A stretch of 64,000 bases of DNA from an uncultured Coriobacteriia bacterium (lineage in GTDB: Bacteria; Actinomycetota; Coriobacteriia; Coriobacteriales; QAMH01), in the NCBI GenBank assembly GCA_948466335.1, contig CAOKAE010000001.1, positions 226,664-290,663 of the forward strand. Direction: 5' to 3'. Made by a program: the position numbers and the translations under genes. The first letter of the stretch is position 1; each line of letters opens with the position of its first letter. The notes beneath the pieces were generated by a model, which saw only the letters and a list, made by a program, of their open reading frames with translations, did not search any database and had not been told where the DNA came from. Below are positions 28,292-34,369 of the stretch, piece by piece.

Positions 28292-28999
28292 ATGAGCATC
28301 GGAAACGCCAACTGCCTGATTTGTGGTGCGCCCATCGTGTACGCCGATAAGGCGCACGAGGTGACTTGCGCGATTTGCGGCAAGACCGAGACGGGGCACT
28401 GCACCTGCGAAGACGGTCACTACGTTTGCAACAACTGCCATCGCGCCAAGGGCGTCGACTTCATCATGGAGACCTGCCGCGCGAGCGATGCGACCAACCC
28501 CATCGAGCTTGCCCAAGCCATCATGGGCGACAAGTCGATATACCCCAACGGCCCCGAGCATCACTCGCTCGTGGGTGCCGTGCTGCTCACCTGCTACAAG
28601 AACGCCGGTGGCGACATCGACCTGGACGCGGCCCTCGACGAGATGTGCGCGCGCAGCATGCATGTGCCGGGCGGGACCTGCGGCTTCTGGGGCTGCTGCG
28701 GTGCGGCCACGAGCGCTGGCCAGTACTACTCCATCATCTCGGGCTCCACGCCCATGACCCAGGACCCCTGGGGAGCGACGGCGCGCCTCACCTCGCGGGT
28801 CATCGGCAAGCTCGCCGACGTGGGCGGCCCGCGTTGCTGCAAGCGCACGGGCTTCACCGCCATCGAGGAGTCGGCGCGTTACACGGCCGAGACGACGGGC
28901 GTGACGATGGACCTTCCCGAGCGCACGACCTGCACCTTCATGGCCAACAACGCCGAGTGCCGTAAGCTCGACTGCCCGTACTTCCCGGTCAAGCGCTGA
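28292..28999 (+). CDS. DUF5714-family Cys-rich protein, 235 aa
   Basis: The N-terminus is a zinc-ribbon-like segment (CLICGAP, CAICGKTETGHCTC, CNNC). The rest carries the conserved DUF5714 pattern EHHSLVGAVLLTCYKNAGG, VPGGTCGFWGCCGAA and GGPRCCKRTGF. About twenty cysteines suggest metal or Fe-S binding. The biochemical role of the family is not established to my knowledge. It lies before an importer/radical SAM module, and a 60-base remnant of a second copy lies after that module (33651-33710), so the association looks functional. AGGAGAGAAGG precedes ATG 28292. Confidence 0.85.
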   Translation: MSIGNANCLICGAPIVYADKAHEVTCAICGKTETGHCTCEDGHYVCNNCHRAKGVDFIMETCRASDATNPIELAQAIMGDKSIYPNGPEHHSLVGAVLLTCYKNAGGDIDLDAALDEMCARSMHVPGGTCGFWGCCGAATSAGQYYSIISGSTPMTQDPWGATARLTSRVIGKLADVGGPRCCKRTGFTAIEESARYTAETTGVTMDLPERTTCTFMANNAECRKLDCPYFPVKR

Positions 29000-29005
29000 C
29001 AATAA

Positions 29006-29017
29006 GGGGACAGACCC
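29006..29017 (+). repeat. Single GGGGACAGACCC copy
   Basis: A TGACAATAA-flanked unit beginning 6 bases after the DUF5714 stop codon; the stop TGA is itself the start of the TGACAATAAGGGG flank. Confidence 0.92.
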
Positions 29018-29123
29018 TCGTCATCGACCCTCGCCATCGGATCCCTGCCACTGACCTCTGCGTCGGCACGCGCCGCCCTACTTCATATGCCGATTACCGT
29101 CAACTATCCACCATTAGCAACAG

Positions 29124-29179
29124 TCTAATAGGTGCAAGTTTCATTTCACTATTTGCATTCATCTAATACGTGTTATAGT
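29124..29179 (+). promoter_or_regulatory. Promoter with direct repeats before the importer operon
   Basis: TCTAATAGGTG (29124-29134) and TCTAATACGTG (29162-29172) are direct repeats 38 bases apart. A possible promoter is TTTGCA (29152-29157), 16 bases, TATAGT (29174-29179). The region is clearly AT-richer than its surroundings. The repeats could be an operator. Confidence 0.5.
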
Positions 29180-29218
29180 CGCGCACGCCGAATCACCATA
29201 TCATGAGAGGAAGATCGC

Positions 29219-30325
29219 ATGAAAACAGGCAAGAAGATTGGGGCGCTGGTAGCCGCACTCGCCATGAGTGTGTTGCTTGCAATCGCCCTCGTCGGCTGTG
29301 GCAATTCCAACAGCCAACAGAACAACGACTTCATGGAGAAGGGCGATGGCGAGCATCTGGTGTGCGCCGTGACCGGCAAGCTCATCAAAATCGCTCCGGC
29401 CATCCTCGCCGACCAGCTCGGTTATTTCGAGGAGGAGGGTTGTGACGTCGAATTCCAGACCGTCGCCCTGGCCGACGCCATGGCATCCATGTCGGTGAAC
29501 AACCTCGACATCGACCTCTTCGGCATCGTTCCCGCGTGCTCCTACGTGTCCCAGGGCGTGCCCATCTACGTCTTTGGCGGGACCATCCTCAATGGCTCGG
29601 AGTTCATTTTTACCACGAGCTTCGATCGCGAACTCAAGACAGCCGAGGACTTCCGCGGCCTCAAGATCGCCTGCTCCCGTGAGGAGAGCGGCCAGATTTA
29701 CCTGAAGGCGTACCTGCAGGACAACGGTCTCGAGCTGGGCAAGGACGTCGAGTTCGAGTACGTCGACAACGCCACTACCGCCCTCGAGGGTCTGCGCTCC
29801 GGTCAGTGTGACCTGTTCATCTGCAACAACGCGCAGGGCTACACCTACTCCACCACTATGGATGACATCAAGGTTCCCGCCGTTCCCGCCGACATCACGG
29901 GTGACTATCCCTGCTGCCGCCAGAACTGCTCCGAGGATGCCTATCACAACAAGTTCCAGTCGCTCGTCGATTTCGAGGTGGCCCTCATCCGCGGCTATGA
30001 CTACTACCTGAACAACAAGGAGGACGTCATCCAGCGCATGGTCGACTACTCCGCCCAGCCGCGTGACTACGTTGAGGCGGCTCTCTACGGCACCGACGAG
30101 TATCGCAACATGATGGATCTCTCGCCCGATCCCCACACCAACGAGATCGTCGACTACTACAAGGCTATGCTCTCCATCGGCGAGATCGAAGGCGACCCCA
30201 ACGCGATGGACCAGTACGCCACGAGCGAGGTCTACAAGCGCGCCCTGGATCGTCTGGTTGCCCAGTATCCCGATAACCAGACCTATCAGAAGCTCGCCGC
30301 CGACTTCGCCATCTACAACAGCTAG
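29219..30325 (+). CDS. NMT1/SsuA-like ABC transporter substrate-binding lipoprotein, 368 aa
   Basis: Signal peptide with lipobox ALVGC, then a periplasmic-binding fold of the NMT1/THI5/SsuA type (KIAPAILADQLGYFEEEGCDVEFQTV, then DLFGIVPACSYVSQGVPIYVFGG). It would capture a small organic ligand outside the membrane for the ATPase and permease encoded next. Ligands of the family include thiamine precursors, sulfonates and nitrate; the ligand here is unknown. A CCRQNC segment near residue 238 is unusual for the family. GAGAGGAAG precedes the ATG. Confidence 0.9.
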   Translation: MKTGKKIGALVAALAMSVLLAIALVGCGNSNSQQNNDFMEKGDGEHLVCAVTGKLIKIAPAILADQLGYFEEEGCDVEFQTVALADAMASMSVNNLDIDLFGIVPACSYVSQGVPIYVFGGTILNGSEFIFTTSFDRELKTAEDFRGLKIACSREESGQIYLKAYLQDNGLELGKDVEFEYVDNATTALEGLRSGQCDLFICNNAQGYTYSTTMDDIKVPAVPADITGDYPCCRQNCSEDAYHNKFQSLVDFEVALIRGYDYYLNNKEDVIQRMVDYSAQPRDYVEAALYGTDEYRNMMDLSPDPHTNEIVDYYKAMLSIGEIEGDPNAMDQYATSEVYKRALDRLVAQYPDNQTYQKLAADFAIYNS

Positions 30326-30357
30326 GGCATGCGCCCATAGCCGCCTAATCGGCATCG

Positions 30358-30388
30358 AGGACGGCCCTGTTTCGCACGGGGCCGTCCT
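30358..30388 (+). terminator. Attenuator hairpin between binding-protein and ATPase genes
   Basis: Perfect 10-bp stem AGGACGGCCC / GGGCCGTCCT with an 11-base loop followed by TTTACC. Placed inside the operon, it should lower expression of the ATPase and permease relative to the binding protein. Confidence 0.7.
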
Positions 30389-30426
30389 TTACCGCATGCG
30401 AGTCATTCACGAAGACGGAGGTGACG

Positions 30427-31308
30427 ATGAGCTCGCTTGACATGATCGACGTGTCCTATGCCTACCCCGACGAGGTGGACAAGTTCAAGACGCGCAAGCA
30501 CCGCACGGTGACCGTCGATGACATTCCCGAGGAAGACCTCGTGCTCAAGCACCTGAACCTGCACGTCGATGATGGCGAGTTCCTATGTCTGGTCGGTCAT
30601 TCGGGATGCGGCAAGTCCACCACCTTGCGCATTCTCGCGGGACTGCAGCAGCCCTTGGGTGGCGAGGTCCGCATCGGCGATGAGCCCCTCGACGGCCCCG
30701 GCATGAATCGCTCGGTGGTCTTCCAGAACTACGCGATCTTCCCGTGGATGAAGGCGAAGAAGAACGTCGAGTTCGGCATTCGCCAGGCATCGCAGGAGCT
30801 CCATCGCGACCTCACGAAGGAACGCATTTCCGAGATTGCCGACGAGTATCTGGCCAAGGTCAACATGACCAAGGCGGCCGACCTGTATCCCTACCAGCTC
30901 TCCGGTGGCATGCAACAGCGCGTGGCCATCGCCCGCGCTCTGGCCATGGACACCGAGATCCTGCTCTTCGACGAGCCCTTCGGCGCGCTCGACATCAAGA
31001 CGCGTCGCGAGCTGCAGGGGCTCATGGAGGGTCTGTGGATGAGCGACGAGTCGCGCAAGACGGCCATCTTCGTCACCCATGACGTCGAGGAGGCCCTGCT
31101 CTTGGCCGACCGCATCATCTTCATGAGCGGCGGTCGCTTCAACGATGAGTTCACGGTCGATGCCCCGCGCCCTCGCGATCCCGAGGTGTTCTTCGAGACC
31201 GATGTGTTCAGGGAACGCCGCGCCTATCTCATGGAACTGTTCTACGCGGCCGAGGAGACGAAGCTCGATCAGACCGACCGCGAGCGCATTTACGAAGAGG
31301 TGATGTAG
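30427..31308 (+). CDS. ABC transporter ATP-binding protein (SsuB/TauB type), 293 aa
   Basis: Walker A GHSGCGKST, signature LSGGMQQRVAIARAL, Walker B LLFDEPFGALD and switch His in VTHDVEEAL are all intact. A charged insertion of about 20 residues (FKTRKHRTVTVDDIPEEDL) sits between the first beta strand and the usual core, which is uncommon. It energises import with the permease that starts right after its stop. ATG 30427 follows GGAGGTGAC; a GTG two codons upstream is less likely. Confidence 0.92.
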   Translation: MSSLDMIDVSYAYPDEVDKFKTRKHRTVTVDDIPEEDLVLKHLNLHVDDGEFLCLVGHSGCGKSTTLRILAGLQQPLGGEVRIGDEPLDGPGMNRSVVFQNYAIFPWMKAKKNVEFGIRQASQELHRDLTKERISEIADEYLAKVNMTKAADLYPYQLSGGMQQRVAIARALAMDTEILLFDEPFGALDIKTRRELQGLMEGLWMSDESRKTAIFVTHDVEEALLLADRIIFMSGGRFNDEFTVDAPRPRDPEVFFETDVFRERRAYLMELFYAAEETKLDQTDRERIYEEVM

Positions 31309-32235
31309 ATGCCGCGAAAGATCAAGACGCATCTGGTCATTTCCCACGTGCTGCTTATGGCCCTGCTGGGGATCATCTTCCTCATGCCCAACACGCGCAC
31401 CAACGTGTCTCCCGTAACGGGCGAGATCATCGCCATCTGCTGCATCGAGTTCTTCTACTTGCTTGCCCTGTTTCTGGGGCATCGCAAGGACCCCATGCCG
31501 GAGGGTTCGTCCGACATCATCCTCATCGTGTGGTTGATATTCATTGCCTGGGAGCTCGTAGGGCCTAAACTGGGCATCGCCCACAACGTGCTCGTTCCTT
31601 CGCCCGAAAACGTCTTCAACGTCTTCGTCGAGCATGCCGACGAGCTGTTCATGAACGTCTTGTCCTCGCTTCAGTTGCTGCTCACGGGCTACATTCTGGG
31701 TACGATCCTTGGCGTCATCCTGGGCATCATCTGCGGATGGGTGCCGCGCTTGCGCGCGATCTTCTATCCCATCGCCAACGTTTTCGCGCCCATTCCGTCG
31801 GTTGTGTTCACTCCGTTTCTGGTCATCATCATGCCGACCTACCGCTGGGCGGCCATCATGGTCATCCTCATTGGCGTGTTCTGGCCGCAGTTCCTGTCCA
31901 TGATCTTGCGTGTGGGTTCGTTGCCGCCGGCCATCGTCGACAACACCCGCGTGCTCATGGTCAACACGCCCACCATGATCATGAAGGTGATCATTCCCTA
32001 CATCATCCCCGACCTGCTCAAGGGCCTGCGCGTGTCGCTTACCACGGGCTTCCTCATGTTGATGTACGCCGAGAGCTTCGGTGCCAAGTCGGGTATCGGG
32101 TACTGGATTTCGAATGCCAACGTGTTCGCGAACTACGCCAACATCTATGCGGGCATCATCACCTGCGGTATGACGGTCACGGTGCTCAACTACTTGTCGG
32201 GCTGGCTGCAGAAGCGCTTCACGACCTGGCGCTAG
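31309..32235 (+). CDS. ABC transporter permease (SsuC/TauC type), 308 aa
   Basis: Six to eight hydrophobic segments. The cytoplasmic EAA-like loop lies in the second half (PAIVDNTRVLMVNTPTMIMKVIIPYIIPDLLKGLRVSL). The N-terminal 80 residues add two extra membrane segments before the standard permease domain. The ATG directly abuts the ATPase stop codon (TAGATG), so translation is coupled. Confidence 0.9.
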   Translation: MPRKIKTHLVISHVLLMALLGIIFLMPNTRTNVSPVTGEIIAICCIEFFYLLALFLGHRKDPMPEGSSDIILIVWLIFIAWELVGPKLGIAHNVLVPSPENVFNVFVEHADELFMNVLSSLQLLLTGYILGTILGVILGIICGWVPRLRAIFYPIANVFAPIPSVVFTPFLVIIMPTYRWAAIMVILIGVFWPQFLSMILRVGSLPPAIVDNTRVLMVNTPTMIMKVIIPYIIPDLLKGLRVSLTTGFLMLMYAESFGAKSGIGYWISNANVFANYANIYAGIITCGMTVTVLNYLSGWLQKRFTTWR

Positions 32236-32252
32236 TCCAACGATGGCAATCG

Positions 32253-32410
32253 GGGGACAGACCCCTTCGTGTCGGCGATGGCGATCGGGGGACAGACCCT
32301 TTGGCCTCCGTTCGCGAGAGGAAGGGGACAGACCCTTGGCATCGTCGCCGGTGAAAAAAGGGGACAGACCCCTGGCTGTCATTTCGAGCGAAGCGAAGTC
32401 GAGAAATCTC
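32253..32410 (+). repeat. Repeat array 16: four plus copies and a shortened CATTTCGAGCG element
   Basis: Core copies at 32253-32264, 32288-32299, 32324-32335 and 32360-32371. The second-family element follows at 32377-32410 and lacks the middle CGAAGTGAGCG stretch found in the other copies. TTTATACT just after it (about 32414) may be a -10 box for the radical SAM gene. Confidence 0.9.
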
Positions 32411-32454
32411 AGGTTTATACTATCGGGACAATTTCGAAAGACGAGAGGATTACG

Positions 32455-33576
32455 ATGAACAACGAGGTCAAGGAACTTATTGACAAGATATTCGACGAGG
32501 GGTCGCGTGGTGCCTCACAGCCGCGAGAGGTCATTATCAGGCTGCTCGAACTCGACAGCGCTTCCGAGGAGGTCACGTACCTCAAGCAGAAGGCGGCCGA
32601 ACTCGCCCACATCGCCACAGGCAATAGCGCCTCCATCTCGGGTGCCATCGGCGTCGACCTGTGCAGTTGCGACATGAACTGCAAGTTCTGTTCGTTTGGC
32701 ACCGAGTGGGGTCTCGTCGAGGAGGACATCATCTACTCCAAGGAAGAGATCATCGAGCTCGTGCGCGCCTACGTCGAGGCCGGCGTCACGACCATCACGC
32801 TGCGTTCCACCGAGTTCTACGACCTCAACGTCCTGTCCGAGTGGCTGGCTGACATCCGCGAGGCTGTTCCGGGCAGCTATCTCATCAACCTCAACGTGGG
32901 CGAGATGAGCCCCGCCATGGCCGAGGCGGCTTATCAGGCCGGTGCGACGAGCGCCTACCACGTCATTCGCATGCGCGAGGGCATCGACACGCCCTTCGAT
33001 GTCGACCTGCGCTGGAAGACCGTCGATGCCATCAGCAACTCGCCGCTGCGCTGGCTCACCTGCGTCGAGCCGCTGGGCATTGAGCACACCAACGAGGAGA
33101 TTGCCGATCGCATTCTGGAGAACCTCGCCCATCGCCCTTATGCCATGAGCGTCATGGCCCGCGTCAACGTGCCGGGCACGCCGTTCGAGGGCATGGAAGC
33201 CATCAGCGAGGAGCGCATGCTGCACCTGCTGGCCACGCTGCGCCTCGTCGTGGGCACGAAGGTGCGCAGCTGCGGCATGCACCCGGCAACCCCCGCGGCG
33301 CTCTATGCCGGTGGTAGCAACTTCACCGTCGAGCGCGGTGCCAACCCGCGTGATACGACCTTCAACGAGGACGTGTGGCGCGGCTTCACCGTGGAGGAGG
33401 CCAAGGCCCTCATCGAGGAGGCTGGCTTCGTCTGCCGTCCGGAGAATCCTGATCCGCGCTTCCCGGTCGATGGCAAGCAGTGGTGGAAGGTGGGCGACCC
33501 GGCTGACTACATCATGCCCGATCCCACCGAGAACGCCGGCGCCGGCTGCTGCTGTGGCCCCCGCAAGAAGAAGTAG
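32455..33576 (+). CDS. Radical SAM enzyme, BioB-like, 373 aa
   Basis: The SAM/[4Fe-4S] motif CDMNCKFC (CX3CX2C, about residues 71-78) is preceded by CS. The remainder follows the TIM-barrel pattern of the biotin synthase/HydE/PylB branch (AGVTTITLRSTEF, INLNVGEMSP, RVNVPGTPF). The last residues are AGCCCGPRKKK type, with adjacent cysteines that could hold another cluster or metal. Downstream of an SsuABC-like importer with repeats in between; probably acts on the imported compound. Product unknown. ATG 32455 has an AGAGG site. Confidence 0.88.
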   Translation: MNNEVKELIDKIFDEGSRGASQPREVIIRLLELDSASEEVTYLKQKAAELAHIATGNSASISGAIGVDLCSCDMNCKFCSFGTEWGLVEEDIIYSKEEIIELVRAYVEAGVTTITLRSTEFYDLNVLSEWLADIREAVPGSYLINLNVGEMSPAMAEAAYQAGATSAYHVIRMREGIDTPFDVDLRWKTVDAISNSPLRWLTCVEPLGIEHTNEEIADRILENLAHRPYAMSVMARVNVPGTPFEGMEAISEERMLHLLATLRLVVGTKVRSCGMHPATPAALYAGGSNFTVERGANPRDTTFNEDVWRGFTVEEAKALIEEAGFVCRPENPDPRFPVDGKQWWKVGDPADYIMPDPTENAGAGCCCGPRKKK

Positions 33577-33589
33577 CTGGTGACAAGAA

Positions 33590-33601
33590 GGGGACAGACC
33601 C
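33590..33601 (+). repeat. Single GGGGACAGACCC copy
   Basis: A GGTGACAAGAAGGGG-flanked unit 14 bases after the radical SAM stop and 50 bases before the DUF5714 remnant. Confidence 0.92.
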
Positions 33602-33650
33602 CTGATGGGAGCCGCCGCCCAGGCTGCGGAAAACGCGCTGACAAAGCACC

Positions 33651-33710
33651 GTGGCCAATAACGCCGAATGCCGCAAGCTTGACTGCCCGTGCTTCCCGGT
33701 CAAGCGCTAA
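33651..33710 (+). pseudogene. 3' remnant of a second DUF5714 gene
   Basis: These 60 bases translate to VANNAECRKLDCPCFPVKR plus stop and match the last 20 codons of the intact gene (28940-28999) at 53 of 60 bases. Four of the seven differences are silent third-position changes and the stop is conserved as TAA for TGA. This suggests the lost gene was a separate working paralogue rather than a recent copy. No upstream part of the gene is left: a repeat unit and about 45 unrelated bases precede it. Confidence 0.85.
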
Positions 33711-33793
33711 TTCGCAAACATATTGCTTGACACCCCCGCCCTGCCAAGGGAAGATGCTATCCGTCTATGAGGCGAGAGGGAGGACGAGGCGAT

Positions 33794-34369
33794 ATGAAGA
33801 TGAGGAAACTGCTGACGGTAGCCATCTCTGCAGTTATGGCGTTTTCGCTGTTCGCACTGATTGGCTGCGGTTCGAGCAACCCGGAACAGGTAATCAGGCA
33901 GGGCCTGAGCGAGGAGTTCGACAGCGTAAAGAATCTCAACGAAGATACGCTCGAGGAGCTTGTCGGAAACAGCCTCAACCAGTTCCAGCAATACGGCATC
34001 GACATGAAGGAGTTTCTCCGCTCCTACTTCGATGGCTTCGATTACAGCATCGGCGATATCACCGTCGACGGCGACACCGCAGAGGCCGAAGTCACCATGA
34101 AGATCAAGAGCTACAGCCAGTTCATGGAAGACTACGAAGCTGATGTCAACCAGTACGTTCTCGATCTCCAGAGCAATCCGAGCGCTCTGAGCTCCATGAC
34201 GCAGGAAGACCTGCTGGCCCAACTTGGCCCCATCATGATGGAAACTCTCAAGGACGTTCCCGTCGTCGAGACCGCACCCGTCATCATCGAGTGCACCAAG
34301 AAGGGCAATACCTGGGAAGTGGCTGATTCGGCAGAGCAGGCAATCCAGAGCGCGATGCTGGAGAGCTAG
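33794..34369 (+). CDS. Small lipoprotein, 191 aa
   Basis: Lipobox ALIGC after a hydrophobic signal (Cys about residue 25), then an acidic helical protein. The middle FDYSIGDITVDGDTAEAEVTMKIKSY resembles the beta sheet of DUF-type (NTF2-like/DUF5105-like) secreted lipoproteins common in Gram-positive gut bacteria. Function unknown. ATG 33794 follows GGACGAGGCGAT; the region before it includes a TATTGCTTGACA stretch that may be part of its promoter. Confidence 0.85.
   Translation: MKMRKLLTVAISAVMAFSLFALIGCGSSNPEQVIRQGLSEEFDSVKNLNEDTLEELVGNSLNQFQQYGIDMKEFLRSYFDGFDYSIGDITVDGDTAEAEVTMKIKSYSQFMEDYEADVNQYVLDLQSNPSALSSMTQEDLLAQLGPIMMETLKDVPVVETAPVIIECTKKGNTWEVADSAEQAIQSAMLES

Follow-up and report, generated by a model that had tools for sequence, protein, structure and literature searches.

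Bacterial routes to organoarsenicals include the closest described counterparts of the locus analysed here, a 64 kb stretch of the genome of an uncultured Coriobacteriia bacterium of the gut (assembly GCA_948466335.1, first contig, 226664-290663; hereafter 'the window'), in which a DUF5714 gene is followed by a four-gene operon for an ATP-binding cassette (ABC) importer and a radical S-adenosylmethionine (SAM) enzyme, and then by a second copy of the gene's own 3′ end. Arsenosugar-type biosynthesis combines ArsM with the radical SAM enzyme ArsS (TIGR04167); ArsM-like methyltransferases, and an ArsM-ArsS fusion scoring above the family cut-off, are among the neighbours of DUF5714 and of the radical SAM homologues in relatives of the window's genome. 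Unlike that system, the gene set considered here has an ABC importer with a PCCRQ-type substrate-binding protein (SBP), a CobW-family GTPase, DUF5714 and a second, BioB-like radical SAM enzyme. The arsinothricin cluster arsQML similarly encodes an ArsM methyltransferase, a radical SAM enzyme and a transporter, but that transporter is a GntP-related permease and not an ABC importer (PMC8552651).

An NMT1-like importer and an organometallic theme are shared with the selenocysteine (Sec)-assisted organometallic system, SAO, whose importer is SaoX/SaoA/SaoP (PMC13188914). The window's importer was rejected as SaoX, SaoA and SaoP, with scores of 26, 217 and 66 bits against equivalog cut-offs of 300, 360 and 295. 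The same source lists MbdU (NF045648), a metal-binding double selenoprotein defined by a 600-bit cut-off, two Sec residues and a length of about 468 aa. The DUF5714 protein of the window matches the first half of MbdU (2e-45, 155.6 bits), but it falls far short of the cut-off, is half the length (235 aa), and has neither Sec nor an in-frame TGA before its stop; it is not MbdU.

At the level of the DNA, the arrangement resembles integrative elements that restore a 3′ end, in that an interrupted gene would have regained its end while the old end was left at the far side. Unlike such elements, the 4.7 kb block holds no integrase, relaxase or transposase among its four genes, all of which belong to transport or radical SAM families, and recombination between homologous DNA is more likely than an integrative element. 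In our judgement there is a probability of roughly 55% that the second copy is the DUF5714 gene's original 3′ end, displaced when a foreign operon recombined into the DUF5714 locus.

The repeated 3′ end of the DUF5714 gene

Direct comparison within the window shows that 53 of 60 bases are identical between 28940-28999, the end of the intact DUF5714 gene, and 33651-33710. Chance similarity is excluded, because the next best match to the second copy reaches only 31/60 on either strand of the window, and the best among 55 DUF5714-bearing loci from other genomes only 41/60. The sequence matches DUF5714 and nothing else. Read from the bases, the copies differ by four silent codon changes, a change of stop from TGA to TAA, and two amino-acid changes (ATG to GTG and TAC to TGC). 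The repeat, the predominance of silent changes, the kept stop and the presence of the importer and radical SAM genes between the copies had all been given in a preliminary description of this DNA, and each is borne out, the coordinates exactly.

The second copy consists of the final 19 codons and stop. As its frame is open for just four codons upstream (TGA CAA AGC ACC GTG), it is a 3′-end fragment, and since it covers the last DUF5714 motif only, it would make no working protein alone. The whole genome (1.89 Mb, 35 contigs) holds one full DUF5714 gene and a 21-residue fragment, which is this remnant.

The block between the copies runs SBP-ATPase-permease-radical SAM over about 4.7 kb, all on the forward strand. 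In itself, the scar is an ordinary genome rearrangement. The families that it joins are uncharacterized: DUF5714, two importer clades with vicinal cysteines, and a conserved BioB-like radical SAM enzyme.

Origin of the remnant

We propose that the ancestral locus read CitMHS transporter, DUF5714, lipoprotein, molybdopterin oxidoreductase, as apparently it still does in the sister species G001, and that a self-contained four-gene operon, of a type carried by Adlercreutzia and its relatives, entered the 3′ end of DUF5714 by recombination. The incoming DNA would have carried a closely related DUF5714 3′ end (88% identical), restoring the gene, while the old end stayed beside the lipoprotein gene, its left side cut by a join with a dispersed repeat, GGGGACAGACCC. 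Units of this repeat lie at both ends of the operon block, and what appears to be a left half-unit, CTGACAA, can be read at 33638-33644, just 5′ of the remnant.

The distribution of the operon points to such an arrival. When 397 genomes of the order were scanned, orthologues of the radical SAM enzyme turned up at 89-91% amino-acid identity in four Adlercreutzia-type genomes from another family (G296-G299) and at 69% in G294, from one further genus; all five have the identical four-gene order. Neither of the same-genus genomes, G001 and G002, has a radical SAM orthologue or the operon, and in the rest of the window's family the operon type is absent, the only relative being a 43% radical SAM homologue in G004. 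The SBP has the opposite affinity to the radical SAM enzyme, at 74% identity to G294 as against 65-67% to Adlercreutzia, and the permease is about equidistant from the two; this mixed ancestry fits horizontal exchange, judged from the sequences. Identity at four-fold sites between the operon genes and those of Adlercreutzia is 0.54-0.67, and because these sites are well diverged we give the arrival no date.

The sister species offers a probable view of the site without the operon. Around the locus, G001 is 90-95% identical to the window. One of its contigs, C98, has CysK, CitMHS and DUF5714 and ends within DUF5714; another, C135, starts at the equivalent of window position 33720, 10 bases beyond the remnant, and continues with the lipoprotein gene (98% identical in amino acids and 95% in nucleotides to that of the window) and molybdopterin genes. 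The only SBP homologue in G001 is a 30% paralogue on C98. It belongs to a third kind of PCCRQ importer, divergent from cysK and upstream of DUF5714 (L042, 3569-6263). The simplest reading of these sequences is that DUF5714 directly precedes the lipoprotein gene in G001.

Several points weigh against our proposal. The G001 junction is a gap between C98 and C135, and the last ~105 nt of C98 (L042 1-105, CATLBX010000098.1) match Enterorhabdus sp. P55 at 104 of 105 positions, with the remainder of the G001 gene only ~71% identical to that strain; the end of C98 is thus either a chimeric contig or the result of recent recombination. The operon may instead have been lost in G001. No donor came to light in which this operon directly follows DUF5714, and the incoming DUF5714 end is therefore something we infer, as we do the direction (a gain here and not a loss in G001), the recombination mechanism and the donor.

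The Enterorhabdus match also disposes of two comparisons. Position 28847, where nucleotide identity to G001 falls from 94% to 70%, was considered as a recombination edge in the window and rejected because the odd sequence is that of G001, and a comparison of the remnant with the 3′ end of the G001 gene is void for the same reason.

The chief rival, which we regard as a substantial minority possibility, is that the operon once lay between two full DUF5714 genes, the second of which has decayed to 60 bases, as had originally been suggested for the module. This could have come about, for example, if a circle bearing the operon and DUF5714 integrated by homologous recombination to give two copies, one of which was later deleted; the chief difference from a displaced original end is whether a complete second copy ever existed. 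Elsewhere, related importers are directly followed by DUF5714 (L125, L126, L128, L134 and L142-L144), so this order is a natural one, and silent changes make up five of the seven differences, as though the fragment had once been under selection. However, a search for a DUF5714 gene after the radical SAM gene found none in any of the five genomes with the intact operon, no genome searched has two separate full copies, and just the final 60 bases survive here. In three of those genomes (G296, G297 and G299) the next gene after the operon is a second radical SAM gene, on the opposite strand. In Adlercreutzia-type genomes this second gene leads to genes for a BadF-type ATPase and a 2-hydroxyglutaryl-CoA dehydratase-like protein (L223, 4576-8641). 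Duplication and collapse of the module, the other origin first put forward, is disfavoured because the sequence after the remnant differs from that after the intact gene and is instead the lipoprotein-side sequence that the window shares with G001.

That dispersed GGGGACAGACCC repeats mediated a partial, local duplication of the gene end, with the operon arriving by an unrelated event, seems unlikely: units do occur both in the spacer before the remnant and after the intact gene, but two separate events would be required at one spot, and the G001 contig stops at both block edges would be left unexplained. Equally improbable, in our view, is that the genus inherited the operon from its ancestor and that G001 and G002 have since lost it: although the divergence from Adlercreutzia at four-fold sites means that arrival need not be recent, the operon is missing from both same-genus genomes and, as a type, from the rest of the family, the G004 relative excepted.

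DUF5714 neighbourhoods and a candidate metalloid pathway

The preliminary description also took the arrangement as support for a functional link between DUF5714, the importer and the radical SAM enzyme. The scar itself says little on this; what stands is that the families belong together, and this comes from neighbourhoods independent of the scar. We surveyed 41 DUF5714 loci over a range of 6.5 kb, of which 28 (L123-L150) come from Coriobacteriia and 13 (L151-L163) from other groups. At 21 of the 28 Coriobacteriia loci, genes for a related importer, for a CobW GTPase or of ArsM/ArsS-like type lie within range, although such locus and genome counts are not independent because these genomes are related. 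Most commonly the genes run SBP-ATPase-permease-DUF5714, and after them there are often CobW and a gene for a fusion protein of about 690 residues with an arsenite-methyltransferase-like domain and ArsS. The ArsS model TIGR04167 has a cut-off of 300 bits, which is exceeded in relatives (356.8 and 321.5 bits) and on contig C11 of the window's own genome (331.5 bits), outside the block. That contig holds an ArsM-like methyltransferase ending in ASCC, a CobW GTPase, an ArsM-ArsS fusion and an amidohydrolase (L192, 5616-11325); no ArsM or ArsS gene lies near the block in the window.

Outside the window's family, four genomes that are more than 80% complete have this type of operon or the closest relative of it, and all of them carry DUF5714 (G294, G296, G297 and G305, where it is split). 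On one contig of Adlercreutzia faecimuris, DUF5714 lies at ~662.5 kb and the operon at ~709-713 kb, about 49 kb apart; an ArsM-ArsS-like fusion at ~697 kb scores 290 bits, slightly below the cut-off. G294 has the operon and, in addition, a permease gene that lies 29 nt away from DUF5714. Radical SAM homologues occur within a few kb of ArsM/ArsS genes in six genomes (G009, G014, G052, G271, G320 and G349).

The SBP tree separates an R clade (YPCCRQNC; the window, Adlercreutzia and G294) from a D clade (FPCCRQ[ST]TNR; mostly beside DUF5714), both with PCCRQ. Two findings count against the link: this type of operon lies next to DUF5714 in the window alone, DUF5714-adjacent importers elsewhere forming the separate SBP clade, and the partners named above occur within 6.5 kb at none of the 13 loci outside Coriobacteriia. 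The radical SAM gene was rejected as a standard DUF5714 neighbour (0 of 41 loci).

Taking these neighbourhoods together, the DUF5714, importer and radical SAM families probably share one pathway; that it handles arsenic in particular is a possibility we rate at rather less than even. Both gradings are judgements and not computed values. In such a pathway, the PCCRQ SBP would bind, for import, a small molecule that is thiol-seeking and probably of arsenic type; this would be processed or held by the radical SAM enzyme and by the Cys-rich DUF5714 protein, and would feed the ArsM/ArsS/CobW set encoded elsewhere in the genome. More tentatively still, gut Eggerthellales may have a pathway in which PCCRQ-type ABC importers take up an arsenic-containing or similar thiol-seeking metalloid molecule for conversion by DUF5714, the Cys-tailed BioB-like radical SAM enzyme, the CobW GTPase and the ArsM-ArsS fusion, the window having an R-type importer set against DUF5714 at a site that is normally D-type. 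Such a pathway would probably be an undescribed variant of organoarsenical-type biochemistry, and, if the families do form a single metalloid pathway, they would give a concrete starting point for learning how dietary organoarsenicals are dealt with by gut bacteria.

Standalone ArsS-like genes in eight genomes (G304, G305, G271, G294, G299, G318, G331 and G349) each have one in-frame TGA, as expected for selenoprotein forms. Some loci of the ArsM/ArsS neighbour set also have a channel of the aquaporin family (MIP) close by.

Proteins and spacers of the block

The features are collected in Table 1. The DUF5714 protein matches the whole of PF18978 (model positions 1-173 of 173; gathering threshold 26.2 bits). 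Across 27 sequences from several phyla, 14 Cys and two His are invariant, in two N-terminal CxxC pairs, a CxxxHxxCxxC stretch, H91, CGxxGxC, a CC pair and a C-terminal C...N..C....CP motif that is itself invariant. Its predicted model is confident (predicted local distance difference test score, pLDDT, 90), and no match was found in the PDB below E 0.001 or with a VIA Z of at least 5, which is not evidence of a new fold. Our literature search found no paper naming this family.

Table 1. Features of the DUF5714 locus, in window coordinates
Feature	Position	Strand	Basis
Intact DUF5714 gene, 235 aa, sole full genome copy	28292..28999	+	PF18978, 208.5 bits
3′ end of intact DUF5714, repeat copy 1	28940..28999	+	53/60 identical to 33651-33710
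Spacer, one GGGGACAGACCC unit (29006), possible promoter 29152-29179	29000..29218	+	
NMT1/SsuA-like lipoprotein SBP, PCCRQNC motif	29219..30325	+	PF09084; R-type clade in SBP tree
ABC importer ATPase	30430..31308	+	PF00005
ABC importer permease	31309..32235	+	PF00528
Spacer permease/radical SAM, 219 nt, four GGGGACAGACCC units	32236..32454	+	
BioB/HydE-like radical SAM enzyme, CxxxCxxC, C-terminal GCCCG tail	32455..33576	+	Orthologues in Adlercreutzia, 89-91% amino-acid identity
Spacer before remnant, one full GGGGACAGACCC unit (33590), apparent second left half	33577..33650	+	
DUF5714 3′-end remnant, 19 codons + stop	33651..33710	+	Repeat match, own-genome search
Downstream neighbour, spacer + lipoprotein gene (33794-34369)	33711..34369	+	Common to G001 from 33720 on

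The radical SAM enzyme combines its CxxxCxxC motif (C72, C76 and C79, invariant in the orthologue alignment) with a predicted barrel fold like that of solved members. The model is similar to biotin synthase (BioB) of V. parvula (Foldseek E 1.5e-18, template modelling (TM) score 0.75) and to HydE (TM 0.72), placing the enzyme near the biotin synthase/HydE/PylB fold group; it differs in having only 18% identity and in a C-terminal tail of CC or CCC followed by G, kept in five of five orthologues. Model confidence is low over the final 38 residues. No family model reached its cut-off, BioB TIGR00433 giving 40.7 bits against 225. A search of the SBP against sequences of solved structures gave no match.

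The candidate promoter before the SBP gene is no better a match than is found in shuffled sequences. The spacer between the permease and radical SAM genes is 219 nt long, as against 13-51 nt in the Adlercreutzia genomes. The repeat GGGGACAGACCC is a REP-like (repetitive extragenic palindromic) repeat at the level of the genus: it is present in G001, and there is none at the A. faecimuris locus. Within the window it has 53 exact occurrences (56 allowing one mismatch) between 705 and 44321, where 0.5 would be expected, and its units lie in spacers, mostly on the same strand and often in tandem ~35-38 nt apart.

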